DNA from: Caldicellulosiruptor diazotrophicus
GTDB lineage: Bacteria > Bacillota > Thermoanaerobacteria > Caldicellulosiruptorales > Caldicellulosiruptoraceae
Reading direction: 5' to 3'
Length of the DNA: 64,000 bases
Assembly (NCBI RefSeq): GCF_017347585.1
Contig: NZ_AP024480.1
Coordinates: forward strand, 2,271,501 to 2,335,500
Shown here piece by piece: positions 19,893-32,662 of this stretch. Within the stretch, counting starts at the first letter, position 1. Each line of letters opens with the position of its first letter. The notes under the pieces are model-generated. The model was not told the DNA's origin, searched no databases, and saw only the letters and a program-made list of their open reading frames with translations. The position numbers were made by a program, and so were the translations under genes.

Positions 19893-21098
19893 TTAGGCTA
19901 CATTCAACCTAACTGGGTGTAACCCCACACCCTCTATCCCCTCAGCAAATGCTTCGGGGAATACTTTTCTTATAATGTTATACGCACTGTTTACATCCGC
20001 ATTTATTAATATCCCTTTGTTGCTCCTAAATAAGCCTCTCTTTATTCTTCGACGTGGATTATAATTTATTTCTTTGATTTCTTCTCCATCTAAAAAACTG
20101 CAGCCACTTGTGTAGCTCTCCTCTGTAATTATTACACTAATCCCTTCTTCTTCACACTTATACTTGAGCATATTTACAAACTGATTAAATGGTATAGAAA
20201 CAAAATTTTGATTATTTACTTTGCCAAGCTCTATCTCCTGCTTCCAGTTTGGATTATAACCAACAACAAGGGTGTCTATTTCGTGTTGCTTACACCAGTT
20301 GACTATAAAACGGCTTGCTTTGTGCATAAAATCCTTAATCCTGTTGTTCCTCTTTAAAGTCAACTTCTCTATTCTTTTGCTACTTCCTCTATTGCCTACA
20401 TAACTCATAAGCTGTGCTCTTTTCTTGTTGTAATATTGATTTATTGACTTAATAACTTTGCCATTAATAACAATAGGCTTTATGCCTATGTTATTTACTA
20501 AAGTTACAAAGTTATTAAGCCCTAAATCTATTCCTGCTATCCTCTTTGGTGGTCTTTTTACCTTGGCTATTTCTTTCTCATAAACTATTTCAACTACATA
20601 AATGCTTCCTTTTGGTATTATCCTGACTTCTTTTAATTTGTCTGTTATCCTTGTCTTTAGCTTTAATTCTGTCTTCGGAAAAGTCAAATAACCATTTTTA
20701 ATCTTGCACTGCTGATTTGTAAAAATAGAAATAGCCCTGCCGTCTTTTTTCTTATACTTTGGTAATTTAGGTCTACCCAAAAATTTACTTTTATCTTTGC
20801 CCCATTCTTTCATTGCTTTAAAAAATGACTTCCAGTTTTTATCAAGAAGTCTTAGCACTTGCTGTGAAGTCTGAGCTGGCAGGCTCTTATAACTCTCATG
20901 GTCTTTTAACATTTTGTCAAGTTCTCTGTATCTTATCCACCTGCCACTTTTTATAAATTCCTGTCTTACAGTGTAGTTTGCAAAGTTGTATAAATTCTTT
21001 GCTGCAAAACACACTTTATCACAATAATTCCATAACTCATGGTTCTTGTTTATCTGTATTTGCTCTGTCCTCTTGAGTATTATCTTCAAACACCTCAC
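19893..21098 (-). CDS. tnpB: TnpB, RNA-guided nuclease-type protein of IS607
   Basis: This is a 401-aa OrfB/TnpB protein with an intact reading frame. The split RuvC nuclease has Asp191 in GIDLGLNN, Glu326 or Glu327 in IITEESYTSG and Asp368 in LINADVNSAYNI. The N-terminal helical region precedes it. The four-cysteine zinc finger normally between the last two RuvC motifs is absent: only one Cys (333) is present and the segment reads RRRIKRGLFRSNKG. A zinc-less TnpB subtype with this RIKRGLFRS type of insert is known among clostridial elements. TnpB proteins are RNA-guided DNA nucleases that help maintain their element. The start overlaps the end of the tnpA remnant by about 60 bases. The exact start codon is uncertain (GTG 21098 assumed). 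Confidence 0.88.
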   Translation of the reverse strand: MRCLKIILKRTEQIQINKNHELWNYCDKVCFAAKNLYNFANYTVRQEFIKSGRWIRYRELDKMLKDHESYKSLPAQTSQQVLRLLDKNWKSFFKAMKEWGKDKSKFLGRPKLPKYKKKDGRAISIFTNQQCKIKNGYLTFPKTELKLKTRITDKLKEVRIIPKGSIYVVEIVYEKEIAKVKRPPKRIAGIDLGLNNFVTLVNNIGIKPIVINGKVIKSINQYYNKKRAQLMSYVGNRGSSKRIEKLTLKRNNRIKDFMHKASRFIVNWCKQHEIDTLVVGYNPNWKQEIELGKVNNQNFVSIPFNQFVNMLKYKCEEEGISVIITEESYTSGCSFLDGEEIKEINYNPRRRIKRGLFRSNKGILINADVNSAYNIIRKVFPEAFAEGIEGVGLHPVRLNVA

Positions 21099-21647
21099 TT
21101 TCTAAAAGCTTTCTTATTTTTTGAATTTTTCTTTTGCTATAAAATTTCATACTGTAACAGTAGAGCAAACTTATAATTTCTTCAATTATTTCCTGAGAAT
21201 CAAGCTTCTTGCTTCCAACTTCCGATGCAACTACTATTTCAGTGTTAAATTTTCTAAATAAGCGTTTAAACAATTCAAATCCCACTCTGCTCAACCTATC
21301 TTTATAGGCTATAACAACCCTTTGTACCTTACCTGCAAGAATATCTATCGGGCATTTTAAAAAATTCATTTCTTTTTTCAAAGCTAATTCCCCATGCTTG
21401 TTCAGAGAATACTCCGTGTATTTTATAGCCACTATTAAAACAAAACTGTTTTAATAATTCAATTTGATTTTCTAAATCCCTCTTTTGTTTTGGAGTTGAA
21501 ACCCTTGCATAAATAGTTGTAATCATAAAATCCATTTGGCATAACCGTTACTTTTATTTTCCCTTCTTTTACATACTTAGTTAGGGTTGGTCTTGATATT
21601 TTTAATAATTCCAGAACTTCTTTTGCTTTCATATTTATATCATCCAT
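21037..21647 (-). pseudogene. tnpA: IS607 TnpA serine recombinase, frameshifted and internally deleted
   Basis: Three frames together encode the family. From 21647, a MerR-like helix-turn-helix (KAKEVLELLKISRPTLTKYV) runs to about 21530. From about 21535 in another frame comes the resolvase core with YARVSTPKQ, carrying the catalytic Ser, and LENQIELLKQF. A third frame from about 21375 continues with VQRVVIAYKDRLSRVGFELF and FNTEIVVASE. The linker between HTH and catalytic core is shorter than in intact relatives, implying a small deletion, and a one-base indel near 21345-21355 causes the second shift. The protein cannot be made intact. TnpB directly follows and overlaps. Confidence 0.85.
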
Positions 21648-21720: not shown

Positions 21721-22659
21721 TTAATTTTTGCTACCATATATTCTCACAAAACCTTTTAGGCTTGTTATCTCAATAGTATTTCCCCCTGAATCAAGGTCTA
21801 TATAGTAGCTGTTTCCTGTTTTTGTAAGATCAAAGTCAGATTTCACTTTCCCTTTTGCCAATATCTTAACCTTTGCTTTAACATCTTTCCCAACAGCAAA
21901 ATTAATGTCTCCTTCACCCACATTCAAAAAAGATGAATTGGCATATCCACTTACCTTCTCTATCTTAGCTATAACATTTCCTTTTGTTGTTGAAACTTTG
22001 AAACTACCCGTTTTTTCAATTTTAAGATTTATGTTTCCTTTGCCATTGTTAATTGTAAAATCTCCACTGACATAGTCAAGTTTTATATTACCTTCACCAT
22101 TTTTAATGTCAAGCACTGTTTCTGTATTTGTCACTTCAATATCTCCCACACCATTTACTATGTAAAAAGAGCCACCTTTAACATCTGAGATACTTACACT
22201 TCCACTGTTGTTTTGAACGACTACTTTGCATTCCTGCGGCAAAAAAATCTCAAATTTAAATTCCTTCTTTGGATTTGAAACTTTGTTTGCTAACACTGCT
22301 TCAGAAGTTGCATATGCTCTTGCTTTTATATATACCCTGTCTATCTCATTTTCTATGCTTAAATCCATGTCATCAAAAATCTTTTGCAGTTGAGTTTTAT
22401 CAAGGTCTTTGACATTATTGCCACTTTCATTATATCTCCATATCACTTTTTTGATATATCTAATAGCAATATCAGACGTAGCCTTCCCCCTGATAACAAT
22501 AAAAGAGCTGTCACAGTCAATGACAAAAGCTTTTCCTCTATAACCTAAAACCTTCCACCTTCCTTCCTGGGAATACTCTTTCGTCTTTGTTTTTTGAGGT
22601 GCGCAAGCAACCAGCATCAAAAGAATTGCCAAAAAAACGATTGCGAGTTTTAACTTCAT
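21721..22659 (-). CDS. DUF4097 (adhesin-like beta-repeat) lipoprotein
   Basis: This is a 312-aa lipoprotein with a signal peptide ending in LMLVAC. Residues from about 60 onward form a repetitive beta structure, with recurring motifs such as GSVSISDV, GDIEVTNTE, GNIKLDYVSG and GNINLKIEKTG, each about 20 residues apart. This is the pattern of DUF4097 proteins, which fold as right-handed beta-solenoids on the cell surface. The function is unknown in the family; roles in envelope-stress signalling have been suggested because of frequent linkage to PspC-type genes. Here a PspA gene lies about 5 kb away rather than adjacent. It abuts the IS607 element at its 3' end. Confidence 0.75.
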   Translation of the reverse strand: MKLKLAIVFLAILLMLVACAPQKTKTKEYSQEGRWKVLGYRGKAFVIDCDSSFIVIRGKATSDIAIRYIKKVIWRYNESGNNVKDLDKTQLQKIFDDMDLSIENEIDRVYIKARAYATSEAVLANKVSNPKKEFKFEIFLPQECKVVVQNNSGSVSISDVKGGSFYIVNGVGDIEVTNTETVLDIKNGEGNIKLDYVSGDFTINNGKGNINLKIEKTGSFKVSTTKGNVIAKIEKVSGYANSSFLNVGEGDINFAVGKDVKAKVKILAKGKVKSDFDLTKTGNSYYIDLDSGGNTIEITSLKGFVRIYGSKN

Positions 22660-22795: not shown

Positions 22796-23401
22796 CTATT
22801 GTGAAATCTCTACAGTCCATGCACATTCTTCTTTTCTGTTAATAAACACATAAAGTTTATTACCATCTCTTTCTACAACCTGTGCACTGAAATCAGTATT
22901 TTGAAGGCAAAGCTTTGTAAAATAGTCCACAATAATATGTTTTGCCACATTTGTATTTTGAAAAATTTTCTCTACAAGACAATCAATATATATCTGGTCA
23001 TTTTGAAAGAGAATTTTATCACACAGACCTATTTGATCTTTTACATCTACTATATTCTCTTTATTAATAGAAGACATAATCAAAACCTCTGGACTTCTAT
23101 ACTGTCCAAACCTGTATTTTTTTGTATTCACAATAGATGTTATGTACATTTTATTGAAGACTTCATTTTTCGAAAGCTTGTAAGCAAGCCAAAGGTCATG
23201 GTTTGCAATGTATGTTTTTTGAGTATCCACACTTACCGCAATCCAGTCTGCTGCTATATGCTCAGGTGTCAAAAATCCTGATATGCACTTGACATATACG
23301 CCCCACATTCCGATTTTCTTGTTATAATCCTTTTCTATATTTATCCCATTTTCAAGTATCATCTTTTTCTTGTTCGGTTCTACTGGTATATAGACAATCA
23401 C
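22796..23401 (-). CDS. Hypothetical protein, 201 aa
   Basis: I do not recognise this protein. The start is set at GTG 23401 (MIVYIPVEPNKKK), eight bases after GGAGGG; the open frame extends upstream inside the previous gene without support. It then overlaps the end of the upstream gene by 50 bases, so translation is likely coupled. The sequence is soluble, mixed alpha/beta, with an HDLWLAYKLSKNE segment and several isolated cysteines. No catalytic motif is clear. The overlap with the DHPS-N-like gene suggests the two products act together. Confidence 0.6.
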   Translation of the reverse strand: MIVYIPVEPNKKKMILENGINIEKDYNKKIGMWGVYVKCISGFLTPEHIAADWIAVSVDTQKTYIANHDLWLAYKLSKNEVFNKMYITSIVNTKKYRFGQYRSPEVLIMSSINKENIVDVKDQIGLCDKILFQNDQIYIDCLVEKIFQNTNVAKHIIVDYFTKLCLQNTDFSAQVVERDGNKLYVFINRKEECAWTVEISQ

Positions 23402-23753
23402 GTTCAAATCCCTCCACAATCTTTTGTATTTTGTCTGAAAGTTCCTTAAGTTTAAAAGGCTGTTTTTTAAGCTTTTCACAAAGCATTTTAAGCTGCAGAA
23501 CATTCCCAAACACCAAACAGTCACTTTTTTGGACTGAGTGGTCTATAGAACCTTTGTTGACAACAGCGTCTGAACCAATGGAAAGCATTGTCTGTTTTAT
23601 TATATTTGCCTGTGTAGGTGTCAGGTCCTCTATGTATATGTGAAGATATATCATTTTCCTAAGAAGATATTCTTTAGCATATCTGTCAGGCCCAACTTTT
23701 TCAATATACTTTTTTAACTTTTCAATATTATTTTCCACTAAATAACAGTTCAA
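23352..23753 (-). CDS. Free-standing homologue of the clostridial DHPS N-terminal domain
   Basis: This is a 133-aa protein starting at TTG 23753 after AAAGGAG. The segment QANIIKQTMLSIGSDAVVNKG, then SDCLVFGNVLQLKMLCEKLK with QPFKLKEL, closely resembles the N-terminal extension found before the catalytic barrel in many clostridial dihydropteroate synthases. I recall that extension as containing NILKQEMLS-GG-AAV and LLMGT...L..KLK.QPFGLKE. Here it stands alone with no FolP barrel. The window's real folP (31532-32662) carries its own, more divergent version. The next gene overlaps it by 50 bases. The role is unknown; it is a candidate regulatory or ligand-binding module. Confidence 0.6.
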   Translation of the reverse strand: MNCYLVENNIEKLKKYIEKVGPDRYAKEYLLRKMIYLHIYIEDLTPTQANIIKQTMLSIGSDAVVNKGSIDHSVQKSDCLVFGNVLQLKMLCEKLKKQPFKLKELSDKIQKIVEGFERDCLYTSRTEQEKDDT

Positions 23754-23793
23754 GGTAAATTTCTCCTTTCTAAAATTTGCACTATATTTTCTA

Positions 23794-24882
23794 CTACTTA
23801 TATTTTAACCTACAAATCTTAACATTTTGATAGTAATAAAGAAGAATTTGTTTATAATTTTTCCCTTGGCGAGCAAGGTAATTTGCTCCCCACTGGCTCA
23901 TTCCAAGGCCATGTCCATATCCTCTTGTTTTGATTCTCAACCCTCTGTTATCAGGGTAAACCCAAAATTCTGTAGAATAAAGTCCAAAGATACTCCTAAA
24001 TTGATCTCCACTCAAAATTATATTTCCAATTTTAATAGATTTTACTCTTTGTGTAGGTGTCCTTTCAACAACCTTTATCTGGGTAGATTTATTTTGTGTG
24101 TCTACCATCAATCCGGGAAAATATTTTTTTAATCTTTTCAGCAACTCGTTATAGGTAAAATAAAATTCACCGGAAAATTTAGGACAACCTTCTTCACCGC
24201 GGCTTACAACACTTTTCAAGTACGGAATTTCTTCTTTAAACACCTCTTTGGCATCTTCAGTCTTCCCACCAGATGCAGCATGATATAGGCTATCGATAAT
24301 TTCACCTCTGTACACAAGTACCTGTCCTTTTGTTTCTTCTACTGCTTTGCGTATTTTGTTGTAGTACTTTTCAAAATTTTTGCCCCACCTTTGTTTCATC
24401 TCACCTTTATCAATATATGCTTGGCAGTGAGAAAAATCATCGCAAAGGTAAACTTTTTTATTTTCATATCCTTTGTGAAAAGCTTTGGTTACAATTTTCT
24501 TTGCAGCATATGTCCTCGAAGCAACTGCTTGGGCTTTCAAAGCCTCTATGTTAAAGTCGGCAGGCATCTCTGCTGCTACAACGCCTATAACATATTCTTC
24601 AAGAGAAATTTTTTCTATTTTGTTTTTATTTTTTCTAAGAAGATTTATATAAATATTATCTTTTTGGTTTTTGGGTTTCATGTTTGAATATACAATTTGA
24701 TTATCTCTTTCTTGCACAATATCATACTTTTCCTTCTGTACACTTTTAAAGTCATTGAGTTTTACCTCTGTAACAATATTTATAATCAATAGAATAGCCA
24801 ATGCCATCAGCATTAGAATTGTATCCAGACAAAAGAAATTATGTTTTTTCTTACTCACCTTTTTTTTCAAGTTCACCCCCAA
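23794..24882 (-). CDS. spoIID: SpoIID/LytB-domain protein (stage II sporulation protein D)
   Basis: This is a protein of about 362 aa with one N-terminal membrane anchor (about residues 21-40) and an extracytoplasmic SpoIID domain. Family landmarks are VVAAEMPADFNIEALKAQAVASRTYA, the DFSHCQAYID segment, YHAASGGKTEDAKEVF, SRGEEGCP and the C-terminal GYGHGLGMSQWGAN. SpoIID is a lytic transglycosylase that strips peptidoglycan during engulfment of the forespore. The start is uncertain: TTG 24882, GTG 24876 and GTG 24858 are in frame, all overlapping or abutting the end of spoIIE. It is co-transcribed with spoIIE. Confidence 0.88.
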   Translation of the reverse strand: MGVNLKKKVSKKKHNFFCLDTILMLMALAILLIINIVTEVKLNDFKSVQKEKYDIVQERDNQIVYSNMKPKNQKDNIYINLLRKNKNKIEKISLEEYVIGVVAAEMPADFNIEALKAQAVASRTYAAKKIVTKAFHKGYENKKVYLCDDFSHCQAYIDKGEMKQRWGKNFEKYYNKIRKAVEETKGQVLVYRGEIIDSLYHAASGGKTEDAKEVFKEEIPYLKSVVSRGEEGCPKFSGEFYFTYNELLKRLKKYFPGLMVDTQNKSTQIKVVERTPTQRVKSIKIGNIILSGDQFRSIFGLYSTEFWVYPDNRGLRIKTRGYGHGLGMSQWGANYLARQGKNYKQILLYYYQNVKICRLKYK

Positions 24883-30009: not shown

Positions 30010-30804
30010 TTACTCCTCATAAATCATCTTAACTGTCATACCACCGTCAACAATTAGATTTGTGCCTGTGATAAATGAGCTTTTCTCAGATGACAAAAAC
30101 AATATGGCGTTTGCAATGTCTTCGGGCATACCCACCCTTCCTGCCGGATGCTGAAGATGATCAATGCTTCTGAGCTCAGATTCACGACGATATTTTCTTT
30201 TTTTGTACTTTGATGTTTCTATCCAACCGGGACTTATCGCGTTTACTCTTATTTTTTTGTGTGAAAGTGACACTGCTAAAGAGTGTGTAAGTGCAAGTAT
30301 ACCACCTTTTGACGCTGAATACGGCTCTGTGTTTGGCTCTGACATCAAAGCTCTTGTTGATGCTATGTTTACAACACAAGCACCTTCTTTTAAATACGGC
30401 AGGAGAAATTTTACCATTAAGTATGGTGCTCTCAAGTTAACATTTATCACTTCATCCCACTCATCAACGCTTCTTTCTTCAATCCACTTTGTTGAGCCTA
30501 TACCTGCATTGTTGACAAGAACATCTATTTTGCCAGCAACATCACCAATCTTGAGGCAGACAAGCTCAATCTCTTTTGGATTTGCTAAGTCACACTCAAA
30601 AAAGGTTATCCTGTCTTTGAACTTATCAAAAAAGTCGAAAGTAGCATCTTCAATTGCTTCTCTGTCATTGTCAATGGCAAACACTTTTGCACCATTTTCC
30701 AAAAAAGAAAGTGCTGTGACAAGTCCAATTCCCTGGGCAGCACCTGTTATAACCACATTTTTGCCTTCAAACTCGGCTATCGAAAGAAAAGGTGAATTCC
30801 CCAT
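30010..30804 (-). CDS. Short-chain dehydrogenase/reductase
   Basis: This is a 264-aa SDR enzyme with the Rossmann glycine motif TGAAQGIG, NNAGIG, and the catalytic serine (NIAST region) with YSASK giving Tyr and Lys. The cofactor loop has FAIDND after beta-2, whose Asp suggests NAD(H) preference. The C-terminus FITGTNLIVDGGMTV is typical of classical SDRs related to FabG. The substrate is unknown. It starts seven bases after the folK stop, so it belongs to the folate-gene transcript by position. Confidence 0.9.
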   Translation of the reverse strand: MGNSPFLSIAEFEGKNVVITGAAQGIGLVTALSFLENGAKVFAIDNDREAIEDATFDFFDKFKDRITFFECDLANPKEIELVCLKIGDVAGKIDVLVNNAGIGSTKWIEERSVDEWDEVINVNLRAPYLMVKFLLPYLKEGACVVNIASTRALMSEPNTEPYSASKGGILALTHSLAVSLSHKKIRVNAISPGWIETSKYKKRKYRRESELRSIDHLQHPAGRVGMPEDIANAILFLSSEKSSFITGTNLIVDGGMTVKMIYEE

Positions 30805-30811
30805 TTTCTAT

Positions 30812-31285
30812 TCATTCCTTTCTTGAAGAGATTAGCTGAGTGTAAAGCTCATACACGCTTTTTTTCAGCACAGGATGGATAAAATCTTTTTCAATTTCGC
30901 AAAGAGGCTCAAGTACAAACAGTCTTTTGTGAAGTTCTGGATGGGGGATTTTGAGCTTCTCTGTGTCTATGACACAGTCATCATAAAAAAGAATGTCAAT
31001 ATCGATGTTCCTCGGTCCCCATTTAAAAAGCCTTATTCTGCCCATTTTATTTTCTATCTCAAGCACAAACTCAAGAAGCTCAAATGGCAAAAGTAATGTT
31101 GTGCCTTTCAAAACACAGTTTAAAAACTTTGGCTGATCTACAAATCCGTAAGGCTGCGTCTCAATTATGCTCGAAACCTTTTCAATTCTTACCTTATCTT
31201 TCAAATGCTCAATTGCTTTTTGTATATTCTTATGTCTGTTCCCAAGATTACTTCCAAGCCCCAAAAATACAATATGCCTATCCAT
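30812..31285 (-). CDS. folK: 2-amino-4-hydroxy-6-hydroxymethyldihydropteridine pyrophosphokinase
   Basis: This is a 157-aa enzyme that transfers pyrophosphate from ATP to 6-hydroxymethyl-dihydropterin in folate synthesis. Motifs are LGLGSNLGNR at the N-terminus, the QPYGFVDQPKFLNCV substrate segment, RLFKWGPRNIDIDILFYDD with the metal-binding aspartates, and IPHPELHKRLFVLEPL. Length is standard. It lies downstream of folP with one small gene between, the expected folate cluster; folB is not seen. Confidence 0.95.
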   Translation of the reverse strand: MDRHIVFLGLGSNLGNRHKNIQKAIEHLKDKVRIEKVSSIIETQPYGFVDQPKFLNCVLKGTTLLLPFELLEFVLEIENKMGRIRLFKWGPRNIDIDILFYDDCVIDTEKLKIPHPELHKRLFVLEPLCEIEKDFIHPVLKKSVYELYTQLISSRKE

Positions 31286-31289
31286 CTTT

Positions 31290-31505
31290 TTACTTTCCGC
31301 CTTCCCCTTTTAAGCTCTCAAAAAGATCTTTTATTCTTTGTTCTCTCTCTTGAGTACTCTGCACATCTGTTGATATAATAAGAACATCACCCTCTTTTGC
31401 ATCTTCTGGAACAATTTCTATGGGGACTGCTACCATTTTTCTTCCTTCAAGCTCAACTATTGCAAAGTTACCTTCAAACCTATCAATGACTACTTTTTTT
31501 ACCAT
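31290..31505 (-). CDS. DUF3006 family small protein
   Basis: This is a 71-aa protein. ATG 31505 (MVKKVVIDRFEG) is preferred because AGAGGT lies upstream at good spacing. The sequence VIDRFEGNFAIVELEG with VPIEIVPEDAKEGDVL is the signature of DUF3006, a small beta-barrel-like domain of unknown function. It is wedged between folP and folK, with four bases to folK. Confidence 0.8.
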   Translation of the reverse strand: MVKKVVIDRFEGNFAIVELEGRKMVAVPIEIVPEDAKEGDVLIISTDVQSTQEREQRIKDLFESLKGEGGK

Positions 31506-31531
31506 AAAATGCACACCTCTTTTTTTAAAAT

Positions 31532-32662
31532 TTAAACTCCATCGAAGATAGCCTGTGTCATCAAGATGGCTCTTTTATTTTCTTTTACATCATGCACCCT
31601 TACAAATTCAATCTTTTTCTGAGCACATATTACAGAGATTGCCAAAGTTCCTTCAAGCCTTTCTTCAGGTAAAAGATTGCCCAGCACATGACCAATCACC
31701 GATTTTCTGGATGCCCCAATCAAAATTGGCCTACCTAAAACCTTGAACTCTTCACATCTTCGCAATATCTCCAAGTTGTCTTCAACCCTTTTCCCAAAGC
31801 CAATACCAGGGTCTAAGATGATGTTTTCAAGTTTCACACCTGCTTTTTGTGCCTGTTCAATCCTTTGTTCAAAAAACTGCAAAATCTCTTCTATAACATC
31901 TTCATAGTAAGGGTTTTTCTGCATATCCTTTGGTGTACCTTTGATGTGCATGATTATGATAGGAACATTATACTGCGCTGCCACGTAAAACATATCTTTG
32001 TCAAACGTCCCGCCGCTGATATCATTTATAATGTCAGCACCGGCTTCTATTGCTTTTTGAGCTACTTTGCTCTTGTATGTATCAATAGAAATTGGAATAT
32101 TCTTATCAACTTCTCTTATAGCTTTAATTGCAGGAACTACTCTTTTTAGCTCTTCCTCTTCCTCAACTGGTTCTGAAAAAGGTCTTGTAGACTCACCGCC
32201 AATGTCCAGAACATCTGCACCATCTTGAATCATCTGGAGTGCTCTTTGGGTTACCTTTTCAACTTGAACTCTTGAACTTTCATAAAACGAGTCTGGTGTG
32301 ACATTTATAATCCCCATCACGTTTGTCTTCAAAAGGCTTATTTGCTTATCTTTTGCCAGCAAGTACCTTTGCAAAATGTTAAAATCTGTATCAAAACTGC
32401 ACTCTATCCCTTCCTCTGCAAGAACACATCTTGTCTTTTCAAAGTTGTAAAGTGATGTTGTTGCAAAGCACATATTGCCGTTTGAAATTGTAAAATAACC
32501 GAGGTTTGAAAGAAGCTGGACAAACTCTGAAAGATTTTTTATGTTATCAAATCTCAGGATTATTGAGTTTGCTTTTTTCTCAAATTCCAAAATATCTTTC
32601 TCATCAAAACCTTTTTGATACAAAATCCTCTTTATATTCGCATCTTTTGATATAAGCCTCAA
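31532..32662 (-). CDS. folP: Dihydropteroate synthase with N-terminal extension
   Basis: This is a 376-aa protein starting at TTG 32662 after AAGGAG. Residues about 1-112 are the N-terminal extension seen in clostridial enzymes. The TIM barrel follows with GIINVTPDSFYE, DIGGESTRPFSEPV, SIDTYKSKVA, NDISGG, LDPGIGFGKRVEDN and GASRKSVIG. It condenses p-aminobenzoate with the pterin pyrophosphate made by FolK. The mobile loops and pABA-site residues appear normal. Confidence 0.95.
   Translation of the reverse strand: MRLISKDANIKRILYQKGFDEKDILEFEKKANSIILRFDNIKNLSEFVQLLSNLGYFTISNGNMCFATTSLYNFEKTRCVLAEEGIECSFDTDFNILQRYLLAKDKQISLLKTNVMGIINVTPDSFYESSRVQVEKVTQRALQMIQDGADVLDIGGESTRPFSEPVEEEEELKRVVPAIKAIREVDKNIPISIDTYKSKVAQKAIEAGADIINDISGGTFDKDMFYVAAQYNVPIIIMHIKGTPKDMQKNPYYEDVIEEILQFFEQRIEQAQKAGVKLENIILDPGIGFGKRVEDNLEILRRCEEFKVLGRPILIGASRKSVIGHVLGNLLPEERLEGTLAISVICAQKKIEFVRVHDVKENKRAILMTQAIFDGV

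Follow-up and report, generated by a model that had tools for sequence, protein, structure and literature searches.

A free-standing FolP N-terminal-type domain in Caldicellulosiruptor diazotrophicus as a candidate flavin-dependent dihydrofolate reductase

We report that a small gene of Caldicellulosiruptor diazotrophicus (ORF 23352..23753 in Table 1) encodes, judged from its sequence, a free copy of the domain found ahead of the catalytic barrel in many dihydropteroate synthases (FolP). The encoded protein is likely to be a stand-alone flavin-dependent dihydrofolate/dihydropteroate reductase, with predicted flavin binding, substrate and catalysis, and is probably the otherwise missing enzyme by which this organism obtains active folate. 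This assignment draws on homology, selection, gene-content and gene-neighbour patterns, and fold prediction. The FolP-fused reductase is already known, and what is new here is the free-standing form.

In the excerpts of PMC1971073 on which we rely here and below, a FolP fusion of Helicobacter pylori is characterised as a flavin-dependent dihydropteroate reductase, many ThyX-using bacteria are noted to lack a recognisable dihydrofolate reductase, the gene for which was yet to be identified, and thymidylate synthesis by ThyX, a folate- and flavin-dependent enzyme, is said not to need a high capacity for dihydrofolate reduction. The same source gives TGxxxRxG as the motif of FolM-type short-chain dehydrogenases (SDRs). 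Excerpts of PMC2474590 draw the same inference as PMC1971073 for Methylacidiphilum, and a haloarchaeal FolC-Prd-FolP fusion is named in those of PMC3403918. No description of the free-standing form was met in a literature search that included the excerpts of these three papers and of PMC4790348 and PMC10593804.

Results

The features discussed below lie in the window, the whole stretch of 64,000 nucleotides of contig NZ_AP024480.1 that was analysed (Table 1). The ORF that a preliminary description of this DNA had marked is a real gene, with a recognisable ribosome-binding site ahead of its start codon. The gene was also said to be separate from any catalytic barrel, and indeed the frame ends at its own stop codon and the pterin-binding barrel is absent according to Pfam and NCBIfam. 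The description of the gene as far from folP is relative: folP lies 7.8 kb off on the same strand (the starts of folP and of the domain match are 7.0 to 10.4 kb apart in the 11 other genomes of the genus). The protein matches no Pfam family at E <= 10, hence neither PF00186 (FolA) nor PF02511 (ThyX), and its sole NCBIfam match, at E 0.03 and far under the cut-off, is to an unrelated family. The gene is present in 12/12 genomes of the genus, including its own, with at least 74% identity (74-93%), and the mean dN/dS against the 11 others is 0.10. The single member of the family outside the genus has a match at 53% identity. In the genome of the window, this gene is the only match to the domain.

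Table 1. Features of the window
Feature	Positions	Strand	Description or evidence
IS605/TnpB-like transposase	19893..21647	-	PF01385, Cas12f1-like TNB domain
Lipoprotein-like DUF4097 protein	21721..22659	-	PF13349
Overlapping downstream gene (partner)	22796..23401	-	about 201 aa; GTG 23401 start; 50-bp overlap; no Pfam or NCBIfam match
Free-standing FolP N-terminal-type domain gene	23352..23753	-	133 aa, TTG start; homology, fold model, purifying selection, gene content
Ribosome-binding site AAGGAG	23763..23768	-	9 bases 5' of TTG start; sequence
spoIID, gene upstream of ORF 23352..23753	23794..24882	-	TIGR02870, 375 bits; no evident folate link
SDR, directly after folK	30010..30804	-	TGAAQGIG, an ordinary TGxxxGxG, not FolM-type TGxxxRxG
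folK	30812..31285	-	TIGR01498, 155 bits
DUF3006 gene between folP and folK	31290..31514	-	74 aa; PF11213
folP, dihydropteroate synthase	31532..32662	-	TIGR01496, 341.7 bits, residues 115-371
N-terminal extension of own FolP, residues 1-114	32321..32662	-	without conserved motif; probably a degenerate copy

The overlap of 50 bp with the next gene had been given correctly, with GTG 23401 as the likely start (ATG in the relatives L009, L011 and L012). This partner gene had been called unfamiliar, in agreement with the lack of any match in Pfam or NCBIfam. It occurs in 13/13 genomes of the family, and in 28 relatives outside the family only two weak matches were found (E 9e-4 and 0.02), neither of them at this locus. 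Its identities of 55-85% (in the 10 further genomes of the genus where it matches over its full length) against 74-93% for the domain mark it as the faster evolving of the two. In one genome (G006), the partner frame is cut short at about 68 aa, and a tail resembling its normal C-terminus follows the stop codon immediately, indicating an internal deletion; the domain is intact there. The two genes had been suggested to form a functional pair; since the partner is confined to the family and is disrupted in G006 beside a whole domain, we consider an obligate pair unlikely and dropped it from consideration; the partner is possibly a helpful but dispensable local one. The DUF4097 protein encoded downstream of the partner has a lipoprotein-like counterpart in the same place in another relative (L013), and the ORFs adjoining the nearby transposase resemble, by eye, pieces of a serine recombinase.

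The likeness to FolP N-termini goes far beyond chance. With the window protein alone as query, a FolP-fused copy in G038 (407-aa open frame, 34% identity) was matched at E 1.3e-17, and further FolP-fused copies were matched at 1e-13 to 1e-16. At E <= 1, something was matched in 40 of the 41 genomes searched (own plus 40 relatives); G035 gave no match, G013 was at chance level only (E 0.2) and G037 reached 1.3e-4. Two kinds make up most of the more distant relatives, namely free genes of about 121 aa in a family (f3) that, from its sequences, we take to be Thermoanaerobacter-like, and the N-termini of frames of about 400 aa that run on into the dihydropteroate synthase (DHPS) barrel (L014, L022, L023, L028 and L030).

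The profile comparison with FolP N-termini that had been proposed was carried out with a domain profile of 19 rows and 12 invariant columns; at E <= 0.001, it detected the domain in 221 of the 398 Bacillota genomes searched. Among the matches listed, most domain sites in these genomes sit in open frames near 400 aa, and in at least 32 of the 221 domain-bearing genomes the match falls in an open frame shorter than 200 aa. When the collection of species genomes was scanned, at least 593 stretches were obtained, at least 499 of them relatives, and the best 80 loci were taken; these come from Bacillota, records labelled Deltaproteobacteria, Omnitrophota, Margulisiibacteriota, archaea and a few others, and they include two free genes of 113-114 aa in DPANN archaea (L112 and L133, Woesearchaeota and Nanoarchaeota). 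Thirty-two of these 80 loci, put in a full-length alignment, match the FolP of the window's genome at 34-44%. At one locus (L160:7989-8762), the domain is joined to the dihydroneopterin aldolase FolB (PF02152) rather than to the FolP barrel, and the following gene resembles folK by eye. Among viral contigs, 91 stretches fit a pattern, and none encodes a relative of the domain (tblastn).

The window protein aligns along the entire domain with the N-terminal extensions of FolP from, for example, Bacillota, Thermodesulfobacteriota, Omnitrophota and Thermoplasmatota, with seven columns invariant across 43 sequences; those extensions continue into a barrel of about 260 aa, which the window protein lacks. 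All seven of the residues invariant in this 43-row alignment are kept in the window protein, and three of 13 near-invariant ones are changed (M30L, E55T and A64V). K53, Q54 and G60 are among the conserved residues.

The FolP of the same genome has an N-terminal extension of its own, and the claim that the free protein matches clostridial FolP extensions better than this one does was right: BLASTP does not align the extension with the free protein, and the probability returned by hhalign is 2.4%. It has none of the motif of the free domain, although it is conserved at 65-93% identity to that of the window across 12 members of the genus. Its low-confidence model (block means of pLDDT 45-72 over residues 1-100) shows the order strand-helix-helix-strand-helix-strand-strand-helix over residues 2-83; the model of the free domain shares this order of elements, with an added short helix before the last strand and a long C-terminal helix. 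Given that hhalign against the domain family is not significant, the kinship of the extension rests on its position and the order of its secondary structure. The mean dN/dS is 0.18 for the extension (10 pairs, one pair with saturated dS having been dropped), against 0.09 for the FolP barrel and 0.10 for the free gene (11 pairs each). We infer that the extension is probably a degenerate copy, the job of which has passed to the free gene. A PDB search with the whole FolP returned 44 distinct sequences, all aligned from query residue 97 or later, and none showed the extension. In another genome (G036:C14:37332-38080), the FolP match is divided between two open frames of 189 and 96 aa.

An independent function of the domain, which the preliminary description had proposed without naming one, is borne out by several kinds of evidence. 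The domain is found as a free copy in several families as well as in two DPANN archaea; it is present without a FolP match in 11 of the 398 Bacillota genomes, two of them with FolA; and in G027 (L190:5469-6320; also L015) the FolP barrel is a fragment covering positions 137-202 of the 244 of PF00809, with the N-terminal domain intact. No FolP over the cut-off was found in G027, where a sequencing error is possible. The G027 locus adjoins genes that by eye resemble those for methylmalonyl-CoA mutase.

The neighbours of the free copies were surveyed among the matches listed for 18 copies outside families f1 and f3 (L171-L188; 20 regions taken). A folate-family ECF transporter S component (TIGR04518, over the cut-off) adjoins 11 of the 18 (L172-L176, L178, L179, L181 and L185-L187), and the gene for formate-tetrahydrofolate ligase (FTHFS, PF01268) lies just upstream in seven (L171, L172, L175-L177, L184 and L188), so that 15/18 have one or both; by eye, neither is among the neighbours shown for L180, L182 and L183. 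In family f3, in which the genomes examined have a FolP without an extension, the FTHFS motif adjoins the gene in 13 of the 16 loci scanned (it is absent from L021, L027 and L076), and the FTHFS neighbour in L016 was confirmed with Pfam. Around the archaeal genes L112 and L133, the neighbours tested encode a membrane-type protein that matches nothing in NCBIfam and a transporter for a queuosine precursor. In the genus of the window, the free gene is not adjacent to folate genes.

Across the 398 Bacillota genomes, FolA (PF00186, E <= 1e-5) was found in 72, ThyX (PF02511, E <= 1e-5) in 332 and FolP (TIGR01496, E <= 1e-20) in 299; the genome of the window has ThyX and no FolA (PF00186) candidate. 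The domain and FolA occur together in nine genomes, the domain only in 212, FolA only in 63 and neither in 114 (Fisher p 8e-17), and within the 299 FolP-bearing genomes the corresponding counts are 7, 203, 44 and 45 (p 1.4e-20). ThyX accompanies the domain in 199/212 domain-only genomes and is present in 20/63 FolA-only genomes (p 2e-23). These p-values at the level of genomes are too small because the genomes are related, and at the level of families (about 141: both 11, domain only 64, FolA only 23, neither 43) the exclusion is weaker (p 0.006). The mutual exclusion with FolA, together with the tie to ThyX, points to the replacement of an enzyme. The genomes with neither gene imply that further reductases must exist, and a different folate reductase probably awaits discovery in the 45 of 299 that bear FolP. 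In each of the f3 genomes G014-G020, ThyX matches in two pieces, perhaps reflecting an intein or another insertion.

A phylogeny had been suggested to see whether the free form is ancestral, and this was not supported. The tree comprises 127 rows and 127 columns, 21 of the 148 rows collected having been dropped (near-copies, repeat copies of one gene, and L131 and L096, the ends of which are uncertain); at an earlier stage, the set had already been cleared of further near-copies from L061-L074 and the FolP loci L031-L060. On this tree, in which many forks are unresolved, the free label needs five changes (mean of shuffled labels 28.7), and the free genes fall into the groups f1; f3; f37 and f38; f70, f13, f104, f55 and f33; and the DPANN archaea. 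Five changes fit several separations, and the strictly supported branches force only one, such that repeated splitting from fused ancestors is the simpler reading but not a proven one.

The structure model of the free domain is confident (pLDDT 92, pTM 0.82). Sequence and profile searches of the PDB with the domain gave matches at chance level only, and Foldseek returned nothing under E 0.001 against the PDB or against viral models. In a structure comparison the top match was the GrpU shell protein at Z 7.4 (81 residues, rmsd 2.7), within the Z 7-8 that is typical when there is no true match; ThyX 4fzb followed below it and within the same range (Z 7.1, 96 residues, rmsd 4.3), and other ThyX entries were also below Z 8 (2cfa at 6.9; 4kar, 3ah5 and 3n3y at 5.9). 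The resemblance to ThyX (Z 5.9-7.1 over 87-96 residues) is attractive because ThyX uses flavin and folate. It has no counterpart in profile comparison, hhalign of the domain against the longest ORFs of 20 ThyX regions giving 0.3%, with the qualification that L194 and L204 among these may not be ThyX or show the motif region. ThyX also recurs among the weak Foldseek matches to the PDB and to viral models alike, which is suggestive only.

A bridge to the characterised phylum is offered by Sulfurovum mangrovi (Campylobacterota), the folP of which carries the domain and is the sole record found in the plasmid collection by tblastn (E 2e-9 when the window protein was the query, 4e-15 for the locus L097 as query). 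Over 97 aa, its 381-aa FolP is 34% identical to the window protein, and it has A in place of the otherwise invariant M56, a departure that leaves the bridge loose. The gene comes after those for aspartate kinase, HobA (hobA) and DNA polymerase III delta', presumably the same order as in H. pylori.

Discussion

In the mechanism that we propose, the free domain would bind flavin together with 7,8-dihydrofolate (or dihydropteroate), and reducing equivalents would pass from the reduced flavin to yield the tetrahydro form. The domain would thereby replace FolA, which was not found in the genome of the window. A low capacity may suffice because these genomes make thymidylate with ThyX (according to the excerpts of PMC1971073). 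In the genus of the window, the FolP-attached copy would have degenerated and the activity would be carried by the free one, and in folate-scavenging relatives the free domain may reduce imported folate.

The closest characterised comparison is DHFR2, the FolP-fused reductase of H. pylori. The window domain is homologous to a FolP of Campylobacterota, that of Sulfurovum, from the same phylum as the characterised enzyme, and it follows the same genomic logic, being found where FolA is mostly missing (as in the excerpts of PMC1971073). In contrast, DHFR2 is fused to the DHPS barrel, whereas the window protein stands alone and the extension of its own FolP has lost the motif; in addition, the free form is spread over several lineages, and some of its bearers have no FolP match. 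Lacking a DHPS barrel, the window protein is therefore classed as a variant of DHFR2 and not as a plain member. With FolA (PF00186) it would share the proposed reaction, but there is no sequence match between the two, and FolA largely excludes the domain across genomes.

Several other explanations have to be weighed against a reductase. The domain could be a non-catalytic folate- or pterin-binding module (a carrier, store or regulator) that aids folate enzymes, whether attached to FolP or free. The folate-family transporter and FTHFS neighbours would suit any folate-binding role, and no close solved relative was found; however, the exclusion of FolA and the tie to ThyX point to the replacement of an enzyme, and the excerpts of PMC1971073 present the H. 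pylori fusion as a reductase, so we consider a pure binding role unlikely. We give still less credence to a lineage-specific, non-folate job carried out with the overlapping partner, in which case folate reduction would fall to another enzyme, for example the SDR encoded beside folK. Such a job would fit the location beside spoIID, the presence of the partner throughout the family and the three changed near-invariant residues, and an SDR gene adjoins folK in the window, with a similar one located downstream of folP in G012. Against it, all seven invariant residues are kept, the domain is intact in G006 where the partner is broken, and the SDR has the ordinary glycine-rich motif and reaches no NCBIfam cut-off among the matches listed (25 of 233 families); it is a possible pteridine-related reductase and a rival candidate for folate reduction. 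As for a chance frame or the remnant of a decaying gene, the TTG start and the lack of a Pfam family are what one would expect of it, but the occurrence of the gene in every genome of the genus, its low dN/dS and the confident fold model have already refuted this reading, which retains practically no probability.

We retain the flavin-dependent reductase as the preferred reading of the window protein. The broader generalisation, for which we see roughly even chances, is that stand-alone flavin-dependent dihydrofolate reductases of about 115-140 residues, with a fold related to that of ThyX and split off from FolP more than once, supply tetrahydrofolate in many anaerobic Bacillota and some DPANN archaea, including FolP-less folate scavengers that keep the gene beside a folate transporter. 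The putative reductase domain would then persist without the enzyme to which it is normally fused. The gene in the window and its relatives are a concrete candidate for the dihydrofolate reductase that had not been found in many ThyX users (in the excerpts of PMC1971073), and, if they are reductases, they would help to settle how many anaerobes finish making folate.
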